Assembly: GCF_000373925.1 (NCBI RefSeq)
Contig: NZ_KB892708.1
Span: forward strand, 186,001-250,000
Source of the DNA: Actinopolymorpha alba DSM 45243
GTDB taxonomy: Bacteria > Actinomycetota > Actinomycetes > Propionibacteriales > Actinopolymorphaceae
Length of the DNA: 64,000 nt
Reading direction: 5' to 3'
A program made the translations under genes and the position numbers. The notes under the pieces were generated by a model that was not told where the DNA came from, searched no databases, and saw only the letters and a program-made list of their open reading frames with translations. Below are positions 3,227 to 64,000 of this stretch, in pieces. Position 1 is the stretch's first letter, and every line of letters begins with the position of its first letter.

Positions 3227-4456
3227 TCAAACTTCGGCGTCAGCTTCGGCGTCCGCGGCCTCGATCTCCTCCCGGGTGATGCCGAGGAGGTACAGGATCG
3301 CGTCGAGGTAGGGCACGCTGAGGGCCGTGTCGGCCGCCTCGCGGACGACCGGCTTGGCGTTGAACGCCACCCCCAACCCCGCGGCCGCGAGCATGTCGAG
3401 GTCGTTGGCACCGTCACCGATGGCGACCGTCTGGGAGAGGGGTACGCCGGCGCGGCTGGCGAACTCCCGCAGCGCCTCCGCCTTGGCAGGACGGTCCACG
3501 ATTCGCCCGACGACCTGGCCGGTCAGCCTGCCGTCAGCGACCTCGAGGGTGTTGGCCGCCACGAAGTCGATGCCGAGTTCGGCGGCGATCGGCTCGACCA
3601 CCTCGGAGAAGCCGCCGCTCACGACGCCGAGTTGGTACCCAAGGCGTTTGAGGGTACGTACGAGGGTTCGGGCGCCCGGGGTGAGCTGGACCTTCCGGCG
3701 TACGTCGTCCAACGCATCCGCGTCCACCCCGGCGAGCAGCGCCACCCGCCGACGTAGGGACTCCGCGAAGTCCAGCTCGCCGCGCATCGCCGCGGCCGTG
3801 ACCCGAGTGACCTCGTCGAGGTAGCCGGCGTGGGCGGCGAGCATCTCGATCACCTCACCCTGGATGAGGGTCGAGTCGACGTCGAGAACCACCAGGCGCT
3901 TGGCCCGCCGGTAGAGCCCCGCCGGCTGGACTGCCACGTCGACCTCCTGGTCCGCGGCCTCGATTGCGAGGGCGTTGCGGAGCATGTCCGGGTCGGTCCC
4001 CGAGACGTCCAGCTCGATCGCGATGACGGGATAGCGGGCGATCCGGACGATCCGGTCGATGTTGCCGCCGGTGTCCGCGATCCGGCCGGCGATGGCGGAG
4101 ACGGCCCGCGCCGGCAACGGATGCCCGAGGACGGTCACGTGGCTACGCCCGAGCCGCCGCGGCAGGTTGTCGCCCGCACCGGACTCGACCTCCACCTCCA
4201 TGCCGAGGTTGCGCGCGACCTTCTCGACGGTCTTTCGGAGACGGATCTCGTCGCGAGGTGCCGTCACCAGCACGCCCAGAACGAGCCTGCCACGCAGGAC
4301 CACCTGTTCGACGTCCAGGACCTCCACCGAGAACGGCGCGAGCGCGTCGAAGACCGCGGACGTGACCCCCGGCCGGTCGCGGCCGGTCAGCGTGACGAGA
4401 AGGGTGGTGACGGTTGGATCTCCTGCGGACACGCCCGCAACGTTAGTGGGGCTCAT
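3227..4456 (-). CDS. serB: Phosphoserine phosphatase with N-terminal ACT region
   Basis: The enzyme hydrolyses phosphoserine to serine, the last step of serine synthesis. Residues 15-180 hold two ACT-like regulatory modules that start at LLVTLTGRDRPGV. The HAD catalytic domain follows, with the nucleophile motif DVDST (Asp192, Asp194), motif II at Ser280-Gly281 (VSGGFSEV), and motif III/IV at 347-352 (GDGAND). At 409 residues it matches the long actinobacterial SerB2 form, in which ACT domains can sense serine. All catalytic residues are present. The acidic, alanine-rich tail is unusual but harmless-looking. Confidence 0.95.
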   Translation of the reverse strand: MSPTNVAGVSAGDPTVTTLLVTLTGRDRPGVTSAVFDALAPFSVEVLDVEQVVLRGRLVLGVLVTAPRDEIRLRKTVEKVARNLGMEVEVESGAGDNLPRRLGRSHVTVLGHPLPARAVSAIAGRIADTGGNIDRIVRIARYPVIAIELDVSGTDPDMLRNALAIEAADQEVDVAVQPAGLYRRAKRLVVLDVDSTLIQGEVIEMLAAHAGYLDEVTRVTAAAMRGELDFAESLRRRVALLAGVDADALDDVRRKVQLTPGARTLVRTLKRLGYQLGVVSGGFSEVVEPIAAELGIDFVAANTLEVADGRLTGQVVGRIVDRPAKAEALREFASRAGVPLSQTVAIGDGANDLDMLAAAGLGVAFNAKPVVREAADTALSVPYLDAILYLLGITREEIEAADAEADAEV

Positions 4457-4466
4457 CCACGCGATC

Positions 4467-5219
4467 TCAGCCGCGTCCGATGAACGGCATCTGGGTCGCC
4501 ATCACCGTCATGAACGGCACGTTGGCATCGAGCGGGAGGCTGGCCATGTAGGTGACAGCACGGGCGACGTGCTCGACGTCGATCGTGGGCTCCGGGCGTA
4601 CCGAGCCATCCGCCTGGGCCACGCCCCGATCCATCCGTTCAGTCATGGGCGTGGCGGCGTTGCCAATGTCGATCTGGCCACAGGCGATGCCGTATGGCCG
4701 GCCGTCCAGAGCGGTGGCTTTCGTGAGTCCGGTGATCGCGTGCTTGCTGGCGGTGTACGGCGCGGAGTGTGGACGTGGCGTGTGGGACGAAAGTGACCCG
4801 TTGTTGATGATGCGTCCTCCCTGTGGCCGCTGTTCCTTCATCAGGCGGAACGCCTGTCGTGTGCACAGGAACGCGCCGGTGAGGTTGGCGCCGATGACGG
4901 CGTTCCAGTCCTCCAGAGCAAGGTCCTCGAGTGGGACCGGTGGCGCGTTTCGGCCGGCGTTGTTGACCAGTAGATCGAGCCGGCCGTACGCCGTGCCGAC
5001 GCCCGTGAACAGAGCCTCCACCGATGCCGGGTCGGCGACGTCGGTTGGCACGGCAAGGCAGTCTTGACGAAGGTCGCGGATCTCGTCGGCCACCGCGTGG
5101 AGCGGTTGCTCACGGCGTCCGGCCAGAACCACCACGAAGCCTTCACGGGCGAGGGCAATCGACACAGCCCGGCCGATTCCCGAACCAGCGCCGGTAACGA
5201 GCGCAACCTTGTCAGTCAT
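4467..5219 (-). CDS. Short-chain dehydrogenase/reductase
   Basis: This is a classical SDR of 250 residues. The NAD(P)-binding TGAGSGIG sits at residues 9-16, NNAG is in the middle, and a catalytic serine (NGSLSSHT) and YTASKHA (YxxxK) follow. The frame is open to 5945, but the start at 5219 gives the family's standard N-terminus ([10 protein letters not shown]). An Arg follows the glycine-rich loop by about 20 residues (AGRREQ), which suggests NADPH preference. The substrate is unknown. It ends 11 bp from the serB start, so the two genes may be co-transcribed. Confidence 0.88.
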
Positions 5220-24688: not shown

Positions 24689-25780
24689 TCAGTCCCAGGA
24701 CAGCGCGCCGCCGTTCTGGTATTCGATCACCCGGGTCTCGAAGAAGTTCTTCTCCTTCTTCAGGTCCATCATTTCCGACATCCAGGGGAAGGGGTTCTCC
24801 GTCTGGGGGACAGTGCCTTCTCCGGGGCGACCCCGGACCCCGAAAACCGGCGTCAACCCGATCTGGACACAGCGCCGGTTGGTGATGAACCGCATGTACT
24901 GCTCGCACAGCCCCGCGTTGAGCCCGAGCATCGCGTGCGGCATGGTGTCGCGGCCGTAGGCGACCTCGAGCTCGCACGCCTCCACCAGCATCCGCCGGAT
25001 CTCCGCCTGGAATTCCTCGGTCCACAGGTGCGGGTTCTCGATCTTGATCTGGTTGATCGCGTCGATCCCGAAGTTCAGGTGGATCGACTCGTCTCGGAGG
25101 ATGTACTGGTACTGCTCGGCGATCCCGACCATCTTGTTGCGCCGGCCGAGCGAAAGGATCTGCGCGAAGCCTGTGTAGAACCACATGCCCTCAAAGACGA
25201 CGTAGAACGCCACCAGGTCGCGCAGGAACGCCTGGTCCTTCTCGGGTGTGCCGGTACGGAACCCCGGATCCTCGAGGTTCTGCGTGTAGTCGAGCGCCCA
25301 GGCCGCCTTGTCGGTGATCGAGGGAATCTCGCGGTACATGTTGAACAGCTCGCCCTCGTCGAGGCCGAGGCTTTCGCAGATGTACTCGAAGGTGTGCGTG
25401 TGCACGGCCTCCTCGAACGACTGCCGCAGGAGGTACTGCCGGCATTCGGGATTGGTGAGGTGGCGGTACACCGCAAGCACGATGTTGTTGGCGACCAGGG
25501 ATTCTGAGGTGGCGAAGAAGCCGAGGTTGCGCTTGAGCATCCGGCGTTCGTCCTCGGTGAGGCCGTTCGGCGCCTTCCACAACGCGATGTCGGCCTGCAT
25601 GGACACTTCGGTCGGCATCCAGTGGTTGTTGCAGCCGGCGAGGTACTTCTCCCATGCCCAGTGGTACTTCAGGGGCAAGAGTTGGTTGACATCGGCGCGG
25701 GCGTTGATCATGGCCTTGTCGTCGACGTTGACGCGGGCGGCGTTGCGGTCGATCTCGCCAAGGCCCGTGGTGTCGTTCAT
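24689..25780 (-). CDS. nrdB: Ribonucleotide reductase small subunit, class Ic type
   Basis: NrdB houses the metal cofactor that oxidises the NrdA active-site cysteine during dNTP synthesis. The 363 residues have metal ligands Glu93 ([10 protein letters not shown]), Glu124 and His127 (EEAVHTHTF), Glu197 (VFEGMWF), and Glu231 and His234 (DESIH). The position of the radical tyrosine is Phe131, and the first ligand is Glu rather than Asp. Every ligand is offset by exactly four from Chlamydia trachomatis R2 (E89, E120, H123, F127, E193, E227, H230), the Mn/Fe class Ic model. The tail [11 protein letters not shown] keeps the Tyr and NrdA-docking peptide. It lies 23 bp after nrdA. Confidence 0.95.
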
Positions 25781-25803: not shown

Positions 25804-28695
25804 TTACTGGCAGGCTTCGCAGTCGGGGTCGTCGATCGAGCAGTACGCGCCCTCGACAAGCTGGGGCTCGGGAGCGGGCGCACTGACGGGGAGGACGGGC
25901 GAGACGGCGTTGAGCTTGCCGTCAGTCCCGCGCAGCGTGCTCTTCTCCACGTGGGTGGCGCTCTGCGACCGCAGGTAGTAGGTCGTCTTGAGGCCACGCC
26001 GCCACGCCAGCCGGTAGAGCGCGTCCAGCTTCAGCCCGCTCGGAGCGGCGACGTAGAGGTTGAGGGACTGCGCCTGGTCGATCCACTTCTGTCTGCGGGC
26101 GGCGGCTTCCACCAGCCAGCTGGCGTCGATCTCGAACGCCGTTGCGTACAACGCCTTCAGGTCGGCGGGCACTCGGTCGATCGGTCCGACACTGCCGTCG
26201 AAGTACTTCAGGTCACTCACCATCACCTCGTCCCACAGGCCTCGCGCCTTCAGGTCGTGGACGAGGTACGGATTGATGACCGTGAAGTCTCCGGACATGT
26301 TCGACTTCACGAACAGGTTGCGGTACAACGGCTCGATCGATTGGCCAACGCCGCAGATGTTGGAGATCGTCGCGGTCGGCGCGATCGCCATGACGTTGGA
26401 GTTGCGCATTCCCTCCGCCTGGATGCGGTGACGCAGGCCGGCCCAGTCGAGACGGCTCGAGCGATCGAGATCCAGCTTGCCGGCGCGTGCGTCGGCAAGT
26501 AGTTCCACCGAGTCGATCGGCAGGATCCCCTTGCTCCACAGGGAACCCTCGAAGGTCTCGTAACGACCGCGTTCGCTGGCGAGATCACACGAGGCGGCGA
26601 GGGCGTGGTAGCTGATCACCTCCATGCTGGTGTCGGCGAAGTCGACCGCGGCCGACGAGCCGATCGGGATCCGCATCCTGAACAACGCTTCCTGGAAGCC
26701 CATCAGGCCGAGCCCGATCGGCCGGTGCCGGCGGTTGGACCGCCGAGCCTCCGGGATCGTGTAGAAGTTCACGTCGATGACGTTGTCGAGTGCGCGGACC
26801 GCGGCCTGGATCGTCTGGGCCAGGTGCTCCTCGTCCAGACCGTTCTCGCCGACGTGGTTGGCCAGGTTGATCGAGCCGAGGTTGCAGACCGCGACCTCGG
26901 CATCCTCTCCGTCCGCGGCCGAGGTGTTGAGCGTGATCTCGGTGCAGAGGTTCGACGAATGCACGACCCCCACGTGCTGCTGCGGCGACCTGAGATTGCA
27001 CGGATCCTTGAACGTGATCCAGGGATGCCCGGTCTCGAAGAGCATGGTGAGCATCCGGCGCCAGAGTTCGACGGCGCGGACCCGCCGGAACACCTTGATC
27101 TCTCCGCGATCGGCGGCCGCTTCGTACTCCCGGTAGCGCTCGGCGAAGGCAAGCCCGTAGAGGTCGTGCAGCTCCGGCACCTCGTCGGGGGAGAAGAGCG
27201 TCCACTGGGCGTCGGCCTCGACCCGCTGGAGAAACAGGTCGGGAATCCAGTTCGCGGTGTTCATGTCGTGAGTACGCCGGCGGTCGTCGCCGGTGTTCTT
27301 GCGGAGGTCGAGGAACTCCTCGATGTCGATGTGCCAGGTTTCCAGATAGGCGCAGGCCGCGCCCTTCCGTTTTCCTCCCTGATTCACGGCTACCGCGGTG
27401 TCGTTGGCGATCTTGAGGAACGGCACGACGCCCTGGGAGTGGCCGTTGGTGCCCTTGATGCGGGCGCCCATTGCACGCACGGGCGTCCAGTCGTTGCCGA
27501 GACCACCGGCGTACTTCGACAGCAGCGCGTTGTTCTTGATCCCGGTGAAGATGCCGTCGAGGTCGTCGGCGACCGTGGTGAGGAAGCACGAGGAGAGCTG
27601 CGGACGCGTCGTCCCCGCGTTGAACAACGTCGGTGTCGAACACATGAAGTCGAACGACGAGAGGAGTTCGTAGAACTCGATCGCCCGGCGCTCCCGGTCG
27701 TCCTCACGCAGGGAGAGCCCCATCGCGACCCGCATGAAGAACGCCTGCGGCAGCTCGAACCGCGCGCCACTGGGGTCGCCCGGTAGGCCGTCGCCGTGGA
27801 GGAAGTACCTGTCGTACAACGTCTGCAGGCCGAGGAACTGGAACCCCAGGTCGCGTTCTGGCCGAAGCGCCCGGCCGAGCCGGTCGAGGTCGAAGGTCGC
27901 GAGCGCGGGATCGAGGAGTTCCAGCTGGATGGCCCGCTCGACGTACGCCTTGAAGTACGCCGGATAGCGGTCCGCCATCTCGTGCTGCCCCGCCTCGTCG
28001 GGCCGGCCGGCGACGAAGGTCAACGCCTCCCGCCGCAGCTTGTCGAGCAGGAGCCGGGCACTGACGTAGGAGTAGGCGGGGTCGGTCTCGACGAAGGTGC
28101 GCGCCGCCATCACCAGGGCGATCTCGAGTTCGGAGAGGGTGATGCCGTCGTAGAGATTGCGATGGAGTTCGGCGAGAACTGAAACGGGGGAGACGGCGTC
28201 GAGTTCTTCGCAGGACTCCTCGACCAGCCGCGTGAGCCGAGCGGTGTCGAGCGGGCGGAGTTCGCCGTCGGCGCCCTTCACCCGCACCGTGGAGTCGGCG
28301 TGTTCGGCCGCGGTGGTCTGGTCGCGTTCAAGCCGCGCACGGGTGTGCTCCTCGCGGTACAACACGTAGGCCCGGGCGACCCGGTGATGCCCGGAGCGCA
28401 TCAGGGCGAGCTCGGCCTGGTCCTGGATGTCCTCGATATGGAAGACGCGGCCGAGGTCGGGATGCCTGGTCAGGGAGGCCACGACCTGGCGGGTGAGTTC
28501 GGCCACGGTTTCGTGGACCCGGGAGGAGTCGCTTGCCTCGCGGCCCTCGACGGCGAGGAACGCCTTGCTCAGGGCGACGGAGATCTTCGAGGGGGCGAAG
28601 GGCGAGGTCGTACCGTCACGGCGGACGACCTGGCGGTCGGTGACGGATGGGACGTCAGGTTCGGTGGGTGTCGGGTCGACGGGGGTTGCTGACAC
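25804..28695 (-). CDS. nrdA: Ribonucleoside-diphosphate reductase large subunit
   Basis: The catalytic subunit has about 963 residues. The N-terminus holds an ATP-cone ([19 protein letters not shown]) and then a second ATP-cone-like block, as in chlamydial NrdA. The barrel has [12 protein letters not shown] with an active-site Cys, [24 protein letters not shown] with the substrate cysteine, and the family's [14 protein letters not shown]. The C-terminal tail [13 protein letters not shown] carries the redox-shuttle cysteines. The GTG at 28695 is preferred because upstream codons run through the riboswitch. Expression is controlled by the cobalamin riboswitch, candidate NrdR boxes and a hairpin. 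Confidence 0.96.
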
Positions 28696-28758
28696 GCGCT
28701 CTACTCCTCGCGAGCTTGCAGGCCTCACCGAAGACCACGAGGAAAGGGGCAGCGTCGA

Positions 28759-28790
28759 CACGTACGCCGCGCGTGGGTGCGGCGTACGTG
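28759..28790 (-). terminator. Hairpin between cobalamin riboswitch and nrdA
   Basis: CACGTACGCCGC (28759-28770) and GCGGCGTACGTG (28779-28790) form a perfect 12-bp stem with an 8-nt loop, 61 bp downstream of the aptamer on the nrd transcript and 63 bp before nrdA. It is a good candidate for the expression platform (transcription stop or RBS-proximal block). No U-run is visible, so a Rho-linked mechanism is possible. Confidence 0.6.
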
Positions 28791-28850
28791 GTGAGCCCTG
28801 GCCATTCCCTCGAGGCCATCGGGTGGCGCGCACCGGTTGGTACGCGCACT

Positions 28851-29070
28851 GGCGGCAGGTCTTCGGACTCACGGGCACTGGAGGCCTAGTTGCCATCGCT
28901 TCCCGGGCATGCGTCCATGCCAGTGCTTGACCCTCTTTTCCCGCACGTTCGCGACCGTGCGGGATCCGACGGTGATGGCGTTCGTTCCCGTTTACCGCTG
29001 CGGGGCAGTCCCGGACTCACACCGGGTTCCCTCTTGCCTCCCACGGTCTGGCGGACCGTGGGAACCACCA
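28851..29070 (-). ncRNA. Cobalamin (B12) riboswitch upstream of nrdAB
   Basis: On the minus strand the leader contains the aptamer core in order. Closing stem TGGTGG (29065-29070) pairs with CCGCCA (28851-28856). GAGGGAAcccGGTGtgAgTCCggg is followed by CCCGCAGCGGTAA, the conserved core of the aptamer. The 3' B12 box AGTCCGAAGACCTGCC lies at about 28854-28869. It is 155 bp from nrdA. In Streptomyces a B12 riboswitch represses the B12-independent nrdABS operon; the same logic is expected here, with adenosylcobalamin turning off nrdAB when a class II enzyme can work. Confidence 0.93.
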
Positions 29071-29082
29071 GCGGAGATGAGA

Positions 29083-29124
29083 CTACATGTAGGGGCCGAC
29101 AAGTCGCCGGAACCCAACATGCGG
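29083..29124 (-). promoter_or_regulatory. Candidate NrdR box pair upstream of the nrd riboswitch
   Basis: CTACATGTAG at 29083-29092 is a perfect palindrome matching the NrdR core CwAtATaTwG at eight of ten positions. A weaker copy on the minus strand, CCGCATGTTG (29115-29124), lies 32 bp away centre to centre, the three-turn spacing typical of paired NrdR boxes. The pair lies just upstream of the expected transcription start of the riboswitch. Confidence 0.5.
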
Positions 29125-29235
29125 TGTGTCGTGACGATTGGCCGTCCGAGTTGGGACTAAGGATGGTTGACACTTCCGGCCCGTCACTAGTGTGCGAGCG
29201 ACCTCGCCCTGGTGACGACGAAGGGACCGTGTGTG

Positions 29236-30897
29236 ATGAGTGAATTCCGGCCTGGGATGTCTCGGCGACACGCGTTGAGTCGGATGATGTGGGGAACCGC
29301 GGGTGCCGCCGGCCTGGCCGCGTGGGGCGTTCCCGGGTGGCTACGACCGACGCCCGCGGCGGCCGCGGAGCAGACCTCGAGCGGCGCGCTCTATCCGAAG
29401 GGAATCCGTCCGTCGAAGCTCTACGTCCTCGCTGAAGGGACGCTGACGTATGAGGAGCGGGTGCTCGTGGCGACGCTGCAGGGCCAGCTGGCCCGGCGCT
29501 CCTCGAACGCCGGCGAGGCGCCCGGCATCTATCTCGATATCCCGGGAATCGGGTACGCCGTCTGGCTGGCGGACCTCGCCGACCGCTATGGCGTGGAGCT
29601 GGTTCCTTCCGACGGCGTGTGGTCGCTGGTCGACAGGTTCCGCCAGCCCGGTTCGTACGGCCGACCGATCAACACCTACGTCCTCTACCGTCGCGGCGAG
29701 TCCTCCGTCAACGTCGCGACCTCGCTGGCCGGGATCACCGGCGCGCTCGCCGTCGAGGAGACCCTCGAGCCGTTGGCCCGCCAGCACGGCCTCCGCCGGG
29801 TCGCCGATGTTCGGGGCAAGGATGACAGTTGGCTGAAGCGGGAGTACTGGCCGCGGCTCCGCCACGACCTGGTGGTCGAGCAGAAACCGGACTTCGCCAA
29901 CCAGCTCCGCGACTACGCCACCATGGCCGGCGCGTTGATGTTCTTCGACGGCAACACCGACTTCCGCCGCCAGGTCGTCCACGACCTCGACCCGGATTCG
30001 GCGGTGGTCGGCTGGGGTGATGCCTCCCATGGTGAGCACACGTTCGTGTCGGTCTCCTCGCAGGAGGGTTCGCGGACGATCCCGGCCGACCATGCCCGCA
30101 ACCTTGCCCCGCTGTCCGGGATCACCCTGGACCGGATCTCCCAGCGCGCCTCGGCCCGTCCGCCCGCGGTCGAACCCGACGTCCACTACGTCGCGTTCCT
30201 GAACACCGACGGCGACAACATCCAGTGGCTGCTCGGCGACTTCCAGAGCAGCACCCGCTGGTTCGCCAACCCCAACCGTGGCGCCTTCGACCTCGGCTGG
30301 GGGATCTCACCGTCCCTCGTCGACCTCGCGCCGTCGGTGATGCGGTGGTACTACGACCATGCGTCCGCCGGGACGCACCAGGAGCGGTACGTCGTCGGGC
30401 CGTCCGGTGGGGGCTACCTCTACCCGAGCATGTACCCGCGCGGCGAGCTCCGCCTGCACGCACGGCGGCTGGCCGGGTCCATGGCGCGGGCTGACCTGGG
30501 AGTCGCCCAGATCATCGACTTCGACTCCTTCGACGACACCGCGCTGTGGTCGGCCTACCTCGATCAGGAGCAGATCGAAGGGCTCATCTATCTGGAGTAC
30601 TCCCGCTACGACTCCCACAAGGGCAGGATCGTCTGGGCGAACGACAAGCCGGTGATCTCCGCCCGCACGATGCTCTGGAGCGGGCTTTCGGGTGCCGACG
30701 AGACCAGCGTGACGGCAGAGCTCAACAACGCCGTCCGCGATCCGTCCAGCGCCGCGGGGTACTCCGTCGTGATGTGGCACGCGTGGAGCAAGACCGTCGA
30801 CAACGTGAAAGCGGTGGTGGACAACCTGGCTCCGCACGTCAGGGTCGTGACGCCCGACGCCCTGGTGAAGCTCGTGGCACGCAACGTACGCCGTTGA
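29236..30897 (+). CDS. Secreted GxGYxYP-family protein
   Basis: The 553-residue protein begins with a Tat signal (SRRHALSRMM, then a hydrophobic AAGLAAWGVPGW and an Ala-rich cleavage region ending about residue 44). The C-terminal half contains VGPSGGGYLYPSMYP, the GxGYxYP motif, followed by VAQIIDFDSFDD and MWHAWSKTVDNVKAV. The family is extracytoplasmic and usually sits in carbohydrate-use loci; its reaction is unsettled. It precedes the GntR-ABC sugar locus. The ATG at 29236 is chosen because it gives the cleanest Tat leader. A candidate -35 TTGACA (29167) has a poorly spaced -10 TAGTGT (29188). Confidence 0.85.
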   Translation: MSEFRPGMSRRHALSRMMWGTAGAAGLAAWGVPGWLRPTPAAAAEQTSSGALYPKGIRPSKLYVLAEGTLTYEERVLVATLQGQLARRSSNAGEAPGIYLDIPGIGYAVWLADLADRYGVELVPSDGVWSLVDRFRQPGSYGRPINTYVLYRRGESSVNVATSLAGITGALAVEETLEPLARQHGLRRVADVRGKDDSWLKREYWPRLRHDLVVEQKPDFANQLRDYATMAGALMFFDGNTDFRRQVVHDLDPDSAVVGWGDASHGEHTFVSVSSQEGSRTIPADHARNLAPLSGITLDRISQRASARPPAVEPDVHYVAFLNTDGDNIQWLLGDFQSSTRWFANPNRGAFDLGWGISPSLVDLAPSVMRWYYDHASAGTHQERYVVGPSGGGYLYPSMYPRGELRLHARRLAGSMARADLGVAQIIDFDSFDDTALWSAYLDQEQIEGLIYLEYSRYDSHKGRIVWANDKPVISARTMLWSGLSGADETSVTAELNNAVRDPSSAAGYSVVMWHAWSKTVDNVKAVVDNLAPHVRVVTPDALVKLVARNVRR

Positions 30898-63623: not shown

Positions 63624-63694
63624 GATACCGGCGGTCAGGGACCAGCCGTCAGTCCGCAGTTCACGCGACCCGAGGATGACTAAACACGAGGTGT

Positions 63695-63724
63695 CTACAC
63701 AGCAGGTATACACACTGTGTAGAG
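63695..63724. promoter_or_regulatory. PadR operator candidate
   Basis: TCTACACAG (63695-63703) and CTGTGTAGA (63716-63724) form a perfect 9-bp inverted repeat around a 12-nt centre, with TATACA nearby, 8 bp before the padR start. This is the typical place and shape of a PadR autoregulatory site. Confidence 0.6.
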
Positions 63725-63732
63725 TGCGGGGC

Positions 63733-64000
63733 ATGTCAGTTGGACACACCCTGCTGGGCCTCCTCGAGTCAGGCCCGCGACACGGCTACGACCTCAAGCG
63801 GGTCTACGACGAACACTTCGCGCACGACCGGCCCCTCCACTACGGGCAGGTCTATGCGACGCTCTCGCGACTCCTCCGCGGCGGGCTCGTCGAGGTCACC
63901 GGGCTCGAGCCCGGTGCCGGACCCGAGCGCAAGCGCTACGCCATCACCACGGCCGGCGTCAGCGACGTCGAGCACTGGCTGTCGACGCCGGAGAAGCCGG
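63733..64000 (+). CDS. PadR-family regulator (partial)
   Basis: The visible 89 residues form the PadR winged helix: LLGLLESGPRHGYDLKRVYD, then HYGQVYATLSRLLRGGLVEV, and KRYAITTAGVSDVEHWL. The C-terminal dimerisation domain lies beyond the window. PadR proteins repress detoxification or transport genes and respond to small molecules. A candidate operator is directly upstream. Confidence 0.9.
   Translation, partial: MSVGHTLLGLLESGPRHGYDLKRVYDEHFAHDRPLHYGQVYATLSRLLRGGLVEVTGLEPGAGPERKRYAITTAGVSDVEHWLSTPEKP

Follow-up and report, generated by a model that had tools for sequence, protein, structure and literature searches.

The leader of nrdABS in Streptomyces coelicolor was reportedly described by Borovok et al. 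(2006) and Grinberg et al. (2006) as combining an adenosylcobalamin (AdoCbl) riboswitch with NrdR boxes. In S. coelicolor, the promoters of both nrdAB and nrdRJ are bound by NrdR (PMC9110341), and nrdABS is regulated by a B12 riboswitch (PMC4991794). In this study, we analysed a 64,000-nucleotide stretch of Actinopolymorpha alba DSM 45243 (hereafter, the window), which comes from an 8-Mb draft genome of 127 contigs that is 95.86% complete. As in S. coelicolor, a class I nrdAB lies behind NrdR boxes and a cobalamin riboswitch, and nrdJ is found with nrdR elsewhere in the genome. We regard the window leader as a genuine two-layer leader of this already-known Streptomyces kind. In its congeners, the riboswitch layer has been lost while the NrdR layer has been kept.

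The features of the locus are listed in Table 1. Along the minus strand, they are arranged in the order divergent neighbour gene, NrdR-box pair, aptamer, P13, 'P14', 12-bp hairpin, ribosome-binding site, nrdA and nrdB. The nrdA start was placed at the GTG at 28695, upstream of which GAGGAG is present at 28709-28704. A longer frame from the ATG at 28896, which passes through the aptamer, was not accepted as the gene start. The ribosome-binding element CTCGCGAGGAG occurs, identically or as a near variant, in many actinobacterial nrdA leaders. The first-pass annotation had the locus right, but its span ended at 29124 and truncated the distal NrdR box, whose real end is 29127.

Table 1 Features of the nrdAB locus, in window coordinates.
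Feature	Position	Strand	Basis or remark
Divergent GxGYxYP-family gene	29239-30897	+	Domain match
Distal NrdR box ACACCGCATGTTGGGT	29112..29127	-	Best pair in window, 32 bp register
Proximal NrdR box CCCCTACATGTAGTCT	29080..29095	-	Best pair in window; seen in leader alignment
Candidate -10 hexamer TAGTCT, within proximal NrdR box	29085-29080	-	Inferred from sequence
Cobalamin (AdoCbl-type) riboswitch aptamer, RF00174	28837..29084	-	79.9 bits, full length
P13-like 9-bp hairpin GCGCGTACC-AACC-GGTGCGCGC	28826..28847	-	Covarying, 38 aligned leaders
Second post-aptamer hairpin 'P14' (our own name), TGGCC-TCGAGGGAAT-GGCCA, conserved loop UCGNGGG	28799..28818	-	Leader alignment, covariation
Perfect 12-bp hairpin, 8-nt loop	28759..28790	-	Strong fold; no conservation in relatives
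Ribosome-binding site element CTCGCGAGGAG	28704..28714	-	Leader comparison
nrdA, class I RNR alpha subunit with ATP-cone, 963 aa, GTG start	25804..28695	-	
nrdB, class Ic-like beta subunit, Phe131 replacing radical Tyr	24689..25780	-	

The covariance match to RF00174 (cmscan) covers the whole aptamer, at model positions 1-189, and lies above the gathering score of 31.5 (E 4.6e-18). Three cobalamin riboswitches exceed the cut-off in the source genome, located at nrdAB, at a cobT-cobU fusion with cobS, and at a metE-like frame (named from its translated start, read by eye); their targets form a coherent B12 set. Scored against an NrdR-box consensus, the NrdR boxes are the sole pair in the window to reach at least 22/32 at 31-33 bp, and a score of 22 was not attained in any of 100 windows simulated with a first-order Markov model. 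They lie 32 bp apart centre to centre, roughly three turns of the helix and thus in helical phase, with a spacer of 16 bp; PMC12051234 gives 15-17 bp between boxes as best for NrdR binding. Each box has a C with a G nine bases from it, taken here to be the conserved GC pairs of PMC9110341. The next-best NrdR-like pair falls in a cluster of ACAC...GTGT-like repeats at 63679-63755, upstream of and overlapping a frame that starts at 63734, and the cluster is probably an operator of another regulator. A by-eye reading of this frame as a PadR-type regulator was dropped, as its first 88 residues gave no Pfam match.

The class II nrdJ is located at C1:37335-38942 and carries the PF08471 class II domain; PF02867 matches at two places in the genome, the window nrdA and this gene. 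Directly before it, at C1:36239, lies nrdR (TIGR00244, 158.6 bits against a cut-off of 124.65), whose product has both the Zn ribbon and the ATP-cone in a domain search. With a box pair upstream and NrdR encoded in the same genome, the nrdAB promoter is predicted from sequence to be bound and regulated by NrdR. All eight genomes of the family have nrdR, with NrdJ identities of 86-88% in the seven relatives, and a box pair at 32 bp is present in 8/8 nrdA leaders. Upstream of nrdR itself, 8/8 family leaders likewise carry a pair at 32 bp, with modest scores per genome (17 or 18/32, equalled by 1 to 8 of 200 simulations). The first-pass annotation had proposed a full aptamer, a box pair phased 32 bp apart and a class II nrdJ elsewhere in the genome, and had likened the control to that of Streptomyces nrdABS. 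The full-length covariance match, the top-scoring box pair and the genes recovered by genome search, including nrdR, which was also sought, agree with it on these points.

The phenylalanine at position 131 marks the window NrdB as class Ic-like. It matches PDB 6y2n with an E value of 1.6e-205, and the aligned sequence also has Phe. In the match to PDB 1syy, which we take to be the R2 of Chlamydia trachomatis (E 7.2e-131), the Glu of TSESL in the window lies opposite TAESL. No sequence difference from class Ic RNR beta subunits was seen, and the protein may be expected to carry their Mn/Fe cofactor. The Phe/Glu pairing is that given for class Ic in PMC8463856. Phe occupies the radical-Tyr position in 15/15 actinobacterial NrdB (own plus 14 named, among the matches listed), including those of Streptomyces nanshensis (L031) and Wenjunlia (L072), and the Phe-type is the ordinary actinobacterial form in this sample of 15. 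The class Ic-like target had been presented as a contrast to Streptomyces, a contrast that fails on these 15 sequences, with S. coelicolor outside the sample.

The NrdA of Rhizobiales (L010, L011, L016, L021, L024, and L081) is 72-74% identical to that of the window in the best segment, compared with 64-73% for the named actinobacteria (among the matches listed), and the NrdB of the same six loci is also Phe-type. That the Rhizobiales proteins are as close as the named actinobacterial ones suggests gene transfer. The NrdA matches in L097 (G007), L067, L071, and L072 start only at residue 124-152 of the window NrdA, and these proteins probably have no N-terminal ATP-cone. Several RNR large-subunit matches are interrupted by long insertions that preserve the reading frame, the open frames being approximately 1357 to 1778 aa (nrdA of G006 [L096, L157, L165], G077, G104, and G027; nrdJ of G199 and G208), the pattern that inteins would give.

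We compared 45 genomes, comprising the source genome, seven others of the family, 23 of group g5 (among the matches listed) and 14 named actinobacteria, whose loci come from the best 80 matches listed. Group g5 is called Kribbella-like here because Kribbella turkmenica (L028) nests within five g5 members of the tree. A riboswitch above the gathering score lies upstream of nrdA in 33 of the 45, namely the source genome, G006, G007, 22 of the 23 Kribbella-like genomes and eight of the 14 named ones. The 12 without it are the five congeners (G001-G005), G077, five Amycolatopsis and Nocardiopsis halotolerans. Class II RNR is present in 45/45 genomes, and over the cut-off in 37/37 beyond the family. 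All 33 riboswitch carriers have nrdJ, but so do all 45 genomes; nrdJ therefore does not imply a riboswitch. The best box pair in the Kribbella-like leaders is often at 31 bp or inside the aptamer, and their boxes were not counted as evidence. The five Amycolatopsis leaders and that of N. halotolerans (L071) have their best-scoring candidate pair at 32 bp. Two loci have unusual arrangements: in Amycolatopsis orientalis (L013, 9246-9468), a cobalamin riboswitch closely follows nrdB rather than preceding nrdA, and in S. nanshensis, a second, divergent cobalamin riboswitch lies back to back with the nrdA leader (4132-4319 on the minus and 4580-4829 on the plus strand).

Downstream of the aptamer, the P13-like and 'P14' hairpins are the conserved elements, neither of which the first-pass annotation mentioned. 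They were aligned in 38 segments (31 from nrdA and seven metE-like), a set that omits L097 and L015, which have no second hairpin, and the riboswitch-less leaders. Standard pairs make up 90.5% of the positions paired, compared with 26-47% when the pairing is slid; 12 of the 14 pairs have changed on both sides and 0/500 shuffles reached any of five measures, counts that are inflated by sequence kinship; the hairpin model was drawn from the same sequences on which covariation was scored. The outermost 'P14' pair mostly fails (unpaired in 27/36), and the window sequence has to be shifted by one base to pair at this position. In isolation, the 30 nt from 28801 to 28830 are predicted to fold differently, and their stability is unremarkable (z -0.18). 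Base pairing between the 'P14' loop and either aptamer loop L5 or the ribosome-binding site was considered by eye and set aside, since no consistent co-variation was seen. Together with the aptamer, the box pair and nrdR-nrdJ, the post-aptamer hairpins are features of the locus established at the level of sequence.

The perfect hairpin at 28790-28759 had been put forward as the expression platform and as a third layer of control. Its fold is strong (-24.3 kcal/mol, z -5.11, with none of 200 dinucleotide shuffles as stable), so the hairpin itself is real; however, hairpin excess in this interval (z < -1.5) was seen in one of 30 comparable leaders, namely that of the window. The 30 leaders are the 33 riboswitch-bearing ones minus three that could not be parsed (L018, L097, and L015). 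In Umezawaea (L018, 4744 onward), the conserved ribosome-binding element is followed by a short frame that stops after approximately ten codons, well ahead of the likely nrdA start. As excess stability is absent from the other 29 leaders, we rejected the hairpin as a conserved platform. Of the proposed three-layer control, the NrdR boxes and the riboswitch stand, but the hairpin layer is not established.

We propose that NrdAB very probably serves as a fallback enzyme and is under two negative controls that act independently, NrdR and the AdoCbl riboswitch, as judged from these features and from Streptomyces. When deoxynucleotides are plentiful, the dATP/ATP-sensing repressor NrdR would bind both boxes and block initiation; the presumed -10 hexamer is overlapped by one of the boxes. 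For transcripts that do start, adenosylcobalamin on the aptamer would lead to less full-length nrdAB mRNA. Production of the O2-dependent, B12-free NrdAB would then be largely confined to times when there is not enough B12 for NrdJ. The direction of this control (B12 represses) and its level (the transcript) are inferred from Streptomyces.

How the riboswitch might switch off nrdAB can be read in several ways. Neither a terminator-like site or U tract nor a sigma-70-like promoter was found in 28600-29300. We give about even chances to an off-switch by premature termination or transcript loss that works without a U-tract terminator, and favour it over pure blocking of the ribosome site, because control by the Streptomyces homologue has been described as acting on transcription and premature termination is described at another, predicted Streptomyces switch. 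A translational off-switch is possible but somewhat doubtful. In it, a pyrimidine-rich strand at approximately 28750-28735 would have two alternative partners, the G-rich strand of the conserved hairpin in the on state and the ribosome-binding site in the off state. The window leader is predicted to form both pairings (the arm by RNAfold; duplex z -1.0 and -1.3, with an overlapping partner), and the ribosome-site element recurs in related leaders. Over the 30 leaders, however, the mean z is -0.69 for the arm, a value that is weak since the leaders are related, and -0.05 for the ribosome-site pairing. The off state therefore has no comparative support, and we rejected sequestration of the ribosome-binding site as a conserved mechanism. 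A role for the 12-bp hairpin in intrinsic termination or anti-termination, switched by the aptamer, would agree with its strong fold, with its place between the aptamer and the start codon, and with the premature termination reported at a predicted cobalamin riboswitch of Streptomyces griseus (PMC8914203). This reading is unlikely, as the U run is absent and the excess stability is confined to the window leader.

A different reading would take the window riboswitch itself as a relic, being lost as in its sister species and leaving NrdR as the sole control. It draws on the state of the locus in the six genus genomes compared, in which the riboswitch is intact in the window, decayed in G002 and core-deleted in the other four. 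None of the five congener loci gave an RF00174 match even at E 5, and all five genomes retain cobalamin riboswitches at other loci. The window copy, however, scores 79.9 bits and matches 53 of 65 strongly conserved consensus positions, compared with 43 positions in G002 and 9-12 (with 45 gapped) in the other four; in the first alignment, the values were instead 41 for G002 and 17 for L092, L094, and L095 (the L093 row is incomplete there). G006, which branches just beyond the genus in the NrdA tree, also retains its riboswitch. We consider the relic reading very improbable for the window and retain two-layer control there. The rooted NrdA tree is (G006,(window,(G002,(G001,G003,G004,G005)))) with node supports of 0.97 to 1.00, G006 being represented by 483 of 870 positions. 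G007 NrdA is placed elsewhere with weak support, so G007 provides no outgroup at this locus. An unrooted NrdJ+NrdR tree sets G001-G005 apart from the rest (0.93) and pairs the window with G006 (0.78).

The rest of the locus has stayed in place in the congeners. The NrdR boxes are still 32 bp apart in 5/5, the P13 region and the CTCGCGAG element remain recognisable, nrdJ persists, and the divergent neighbour gene is present in 5/5 at 59-66% identity; this neighbour is absent from the loci of G006, G007, and two Kribbella-like genomes. As five of the six genus genomes have no intact riboswitch at the locus, it is dispensable. Losses elsewhere have a similar form: relative to L103 of the same group, the Kribbella-like G077 has one large aptamer-core deletion and scattered substitutions, and N. 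halotolerans, compared with L067, has lost part of the core and has an altered 3' conserved block. In these sequences, the sensor is lost repeatedly and the repressor sites are not. We tentatively suggest, with somewhat less than even confidence, that the B12 veto is a detachable evolutionary layer, in which the aptamer core is repeatedly knocked out and the NrdR boxes, the post-aptamer leader and nrdJ stay, leaving an NrdR-only nrdAB. No earlier report of genus-level riboswitch loss was found in the literature searched, and we consider such loss with retained NrdR boxes to be new.

The distribution of CobQ would fit a loss of the sensor in lineages with their own B12 supply: CobQ is over the cut-off in G001-G005 and in 35 of the 37 genomes beyond the family, and below it in the source genome, G006, and G007. 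All five CobQ-negative genomes keep the riboswitch, all 12 riboswitch-less genomes have CobQ, and 28 have both. The chance of all five CobQ-negative genomes falling among 33 carriers of 45 is approximately 0.19 (hand arithmetic), so the link is not significant and is offered as a lead only. A rule by which B12 producers lose the switch and scavengers keep it was rejected: it is perfect for CobQ in the eight family genomes, but the losses there are one clade, and all 23 Kribbella-like genomes are CobQ-positive and 22 retain the riboswitch. CobI/CbiL, an early-pathway marker, is over the cut-off in one of the eight family genomes, G002. In that genome, a scan of 9 of 11 frames showed CobQ beside two further genes, one CobO-like and the other a second CobB/CobQ-like one. 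Around the CobQ of G001, no other cob gene was found at E 1e-10 in 10 of the 13 frames in 18 kb; CobQ therefore need not mean de novo synthesis.

These data add another actinobacterial family to those with the two-layer RNR control of Streptomyces. An intact, a decayed and a deleted riboswitch at one syntenic locus in one genus provide a natural series for the contribution of a riboswitch beyond that of a transcription factor. The covarying hairpin pair is a target for studying how actinobacterial cobalamin switches act without a U-tract terminator. This pair is common to the nrdA leaders and to the seven aligned metE-like riboswitches of the same aptamer family, which differ from the nrdA ones in the ribosome-site element and the target gene. 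In contrast to Streptomyces nrdABS, the AraC-like nrdS downstream of nrdB is missing: the locus check found no nrdS beside nrdB, which is followed by a zinc alcohol dehydrogenase frame encoded on the opposite strand. The leaders of S. nanshensis and Wenjunlia share the second post-aptamer hairpin with the window, the likeness to S. coelicolor resting on its description, and nrdR directly precedes nrdJ in the source genome, as in Streptomyces nrdRJ.
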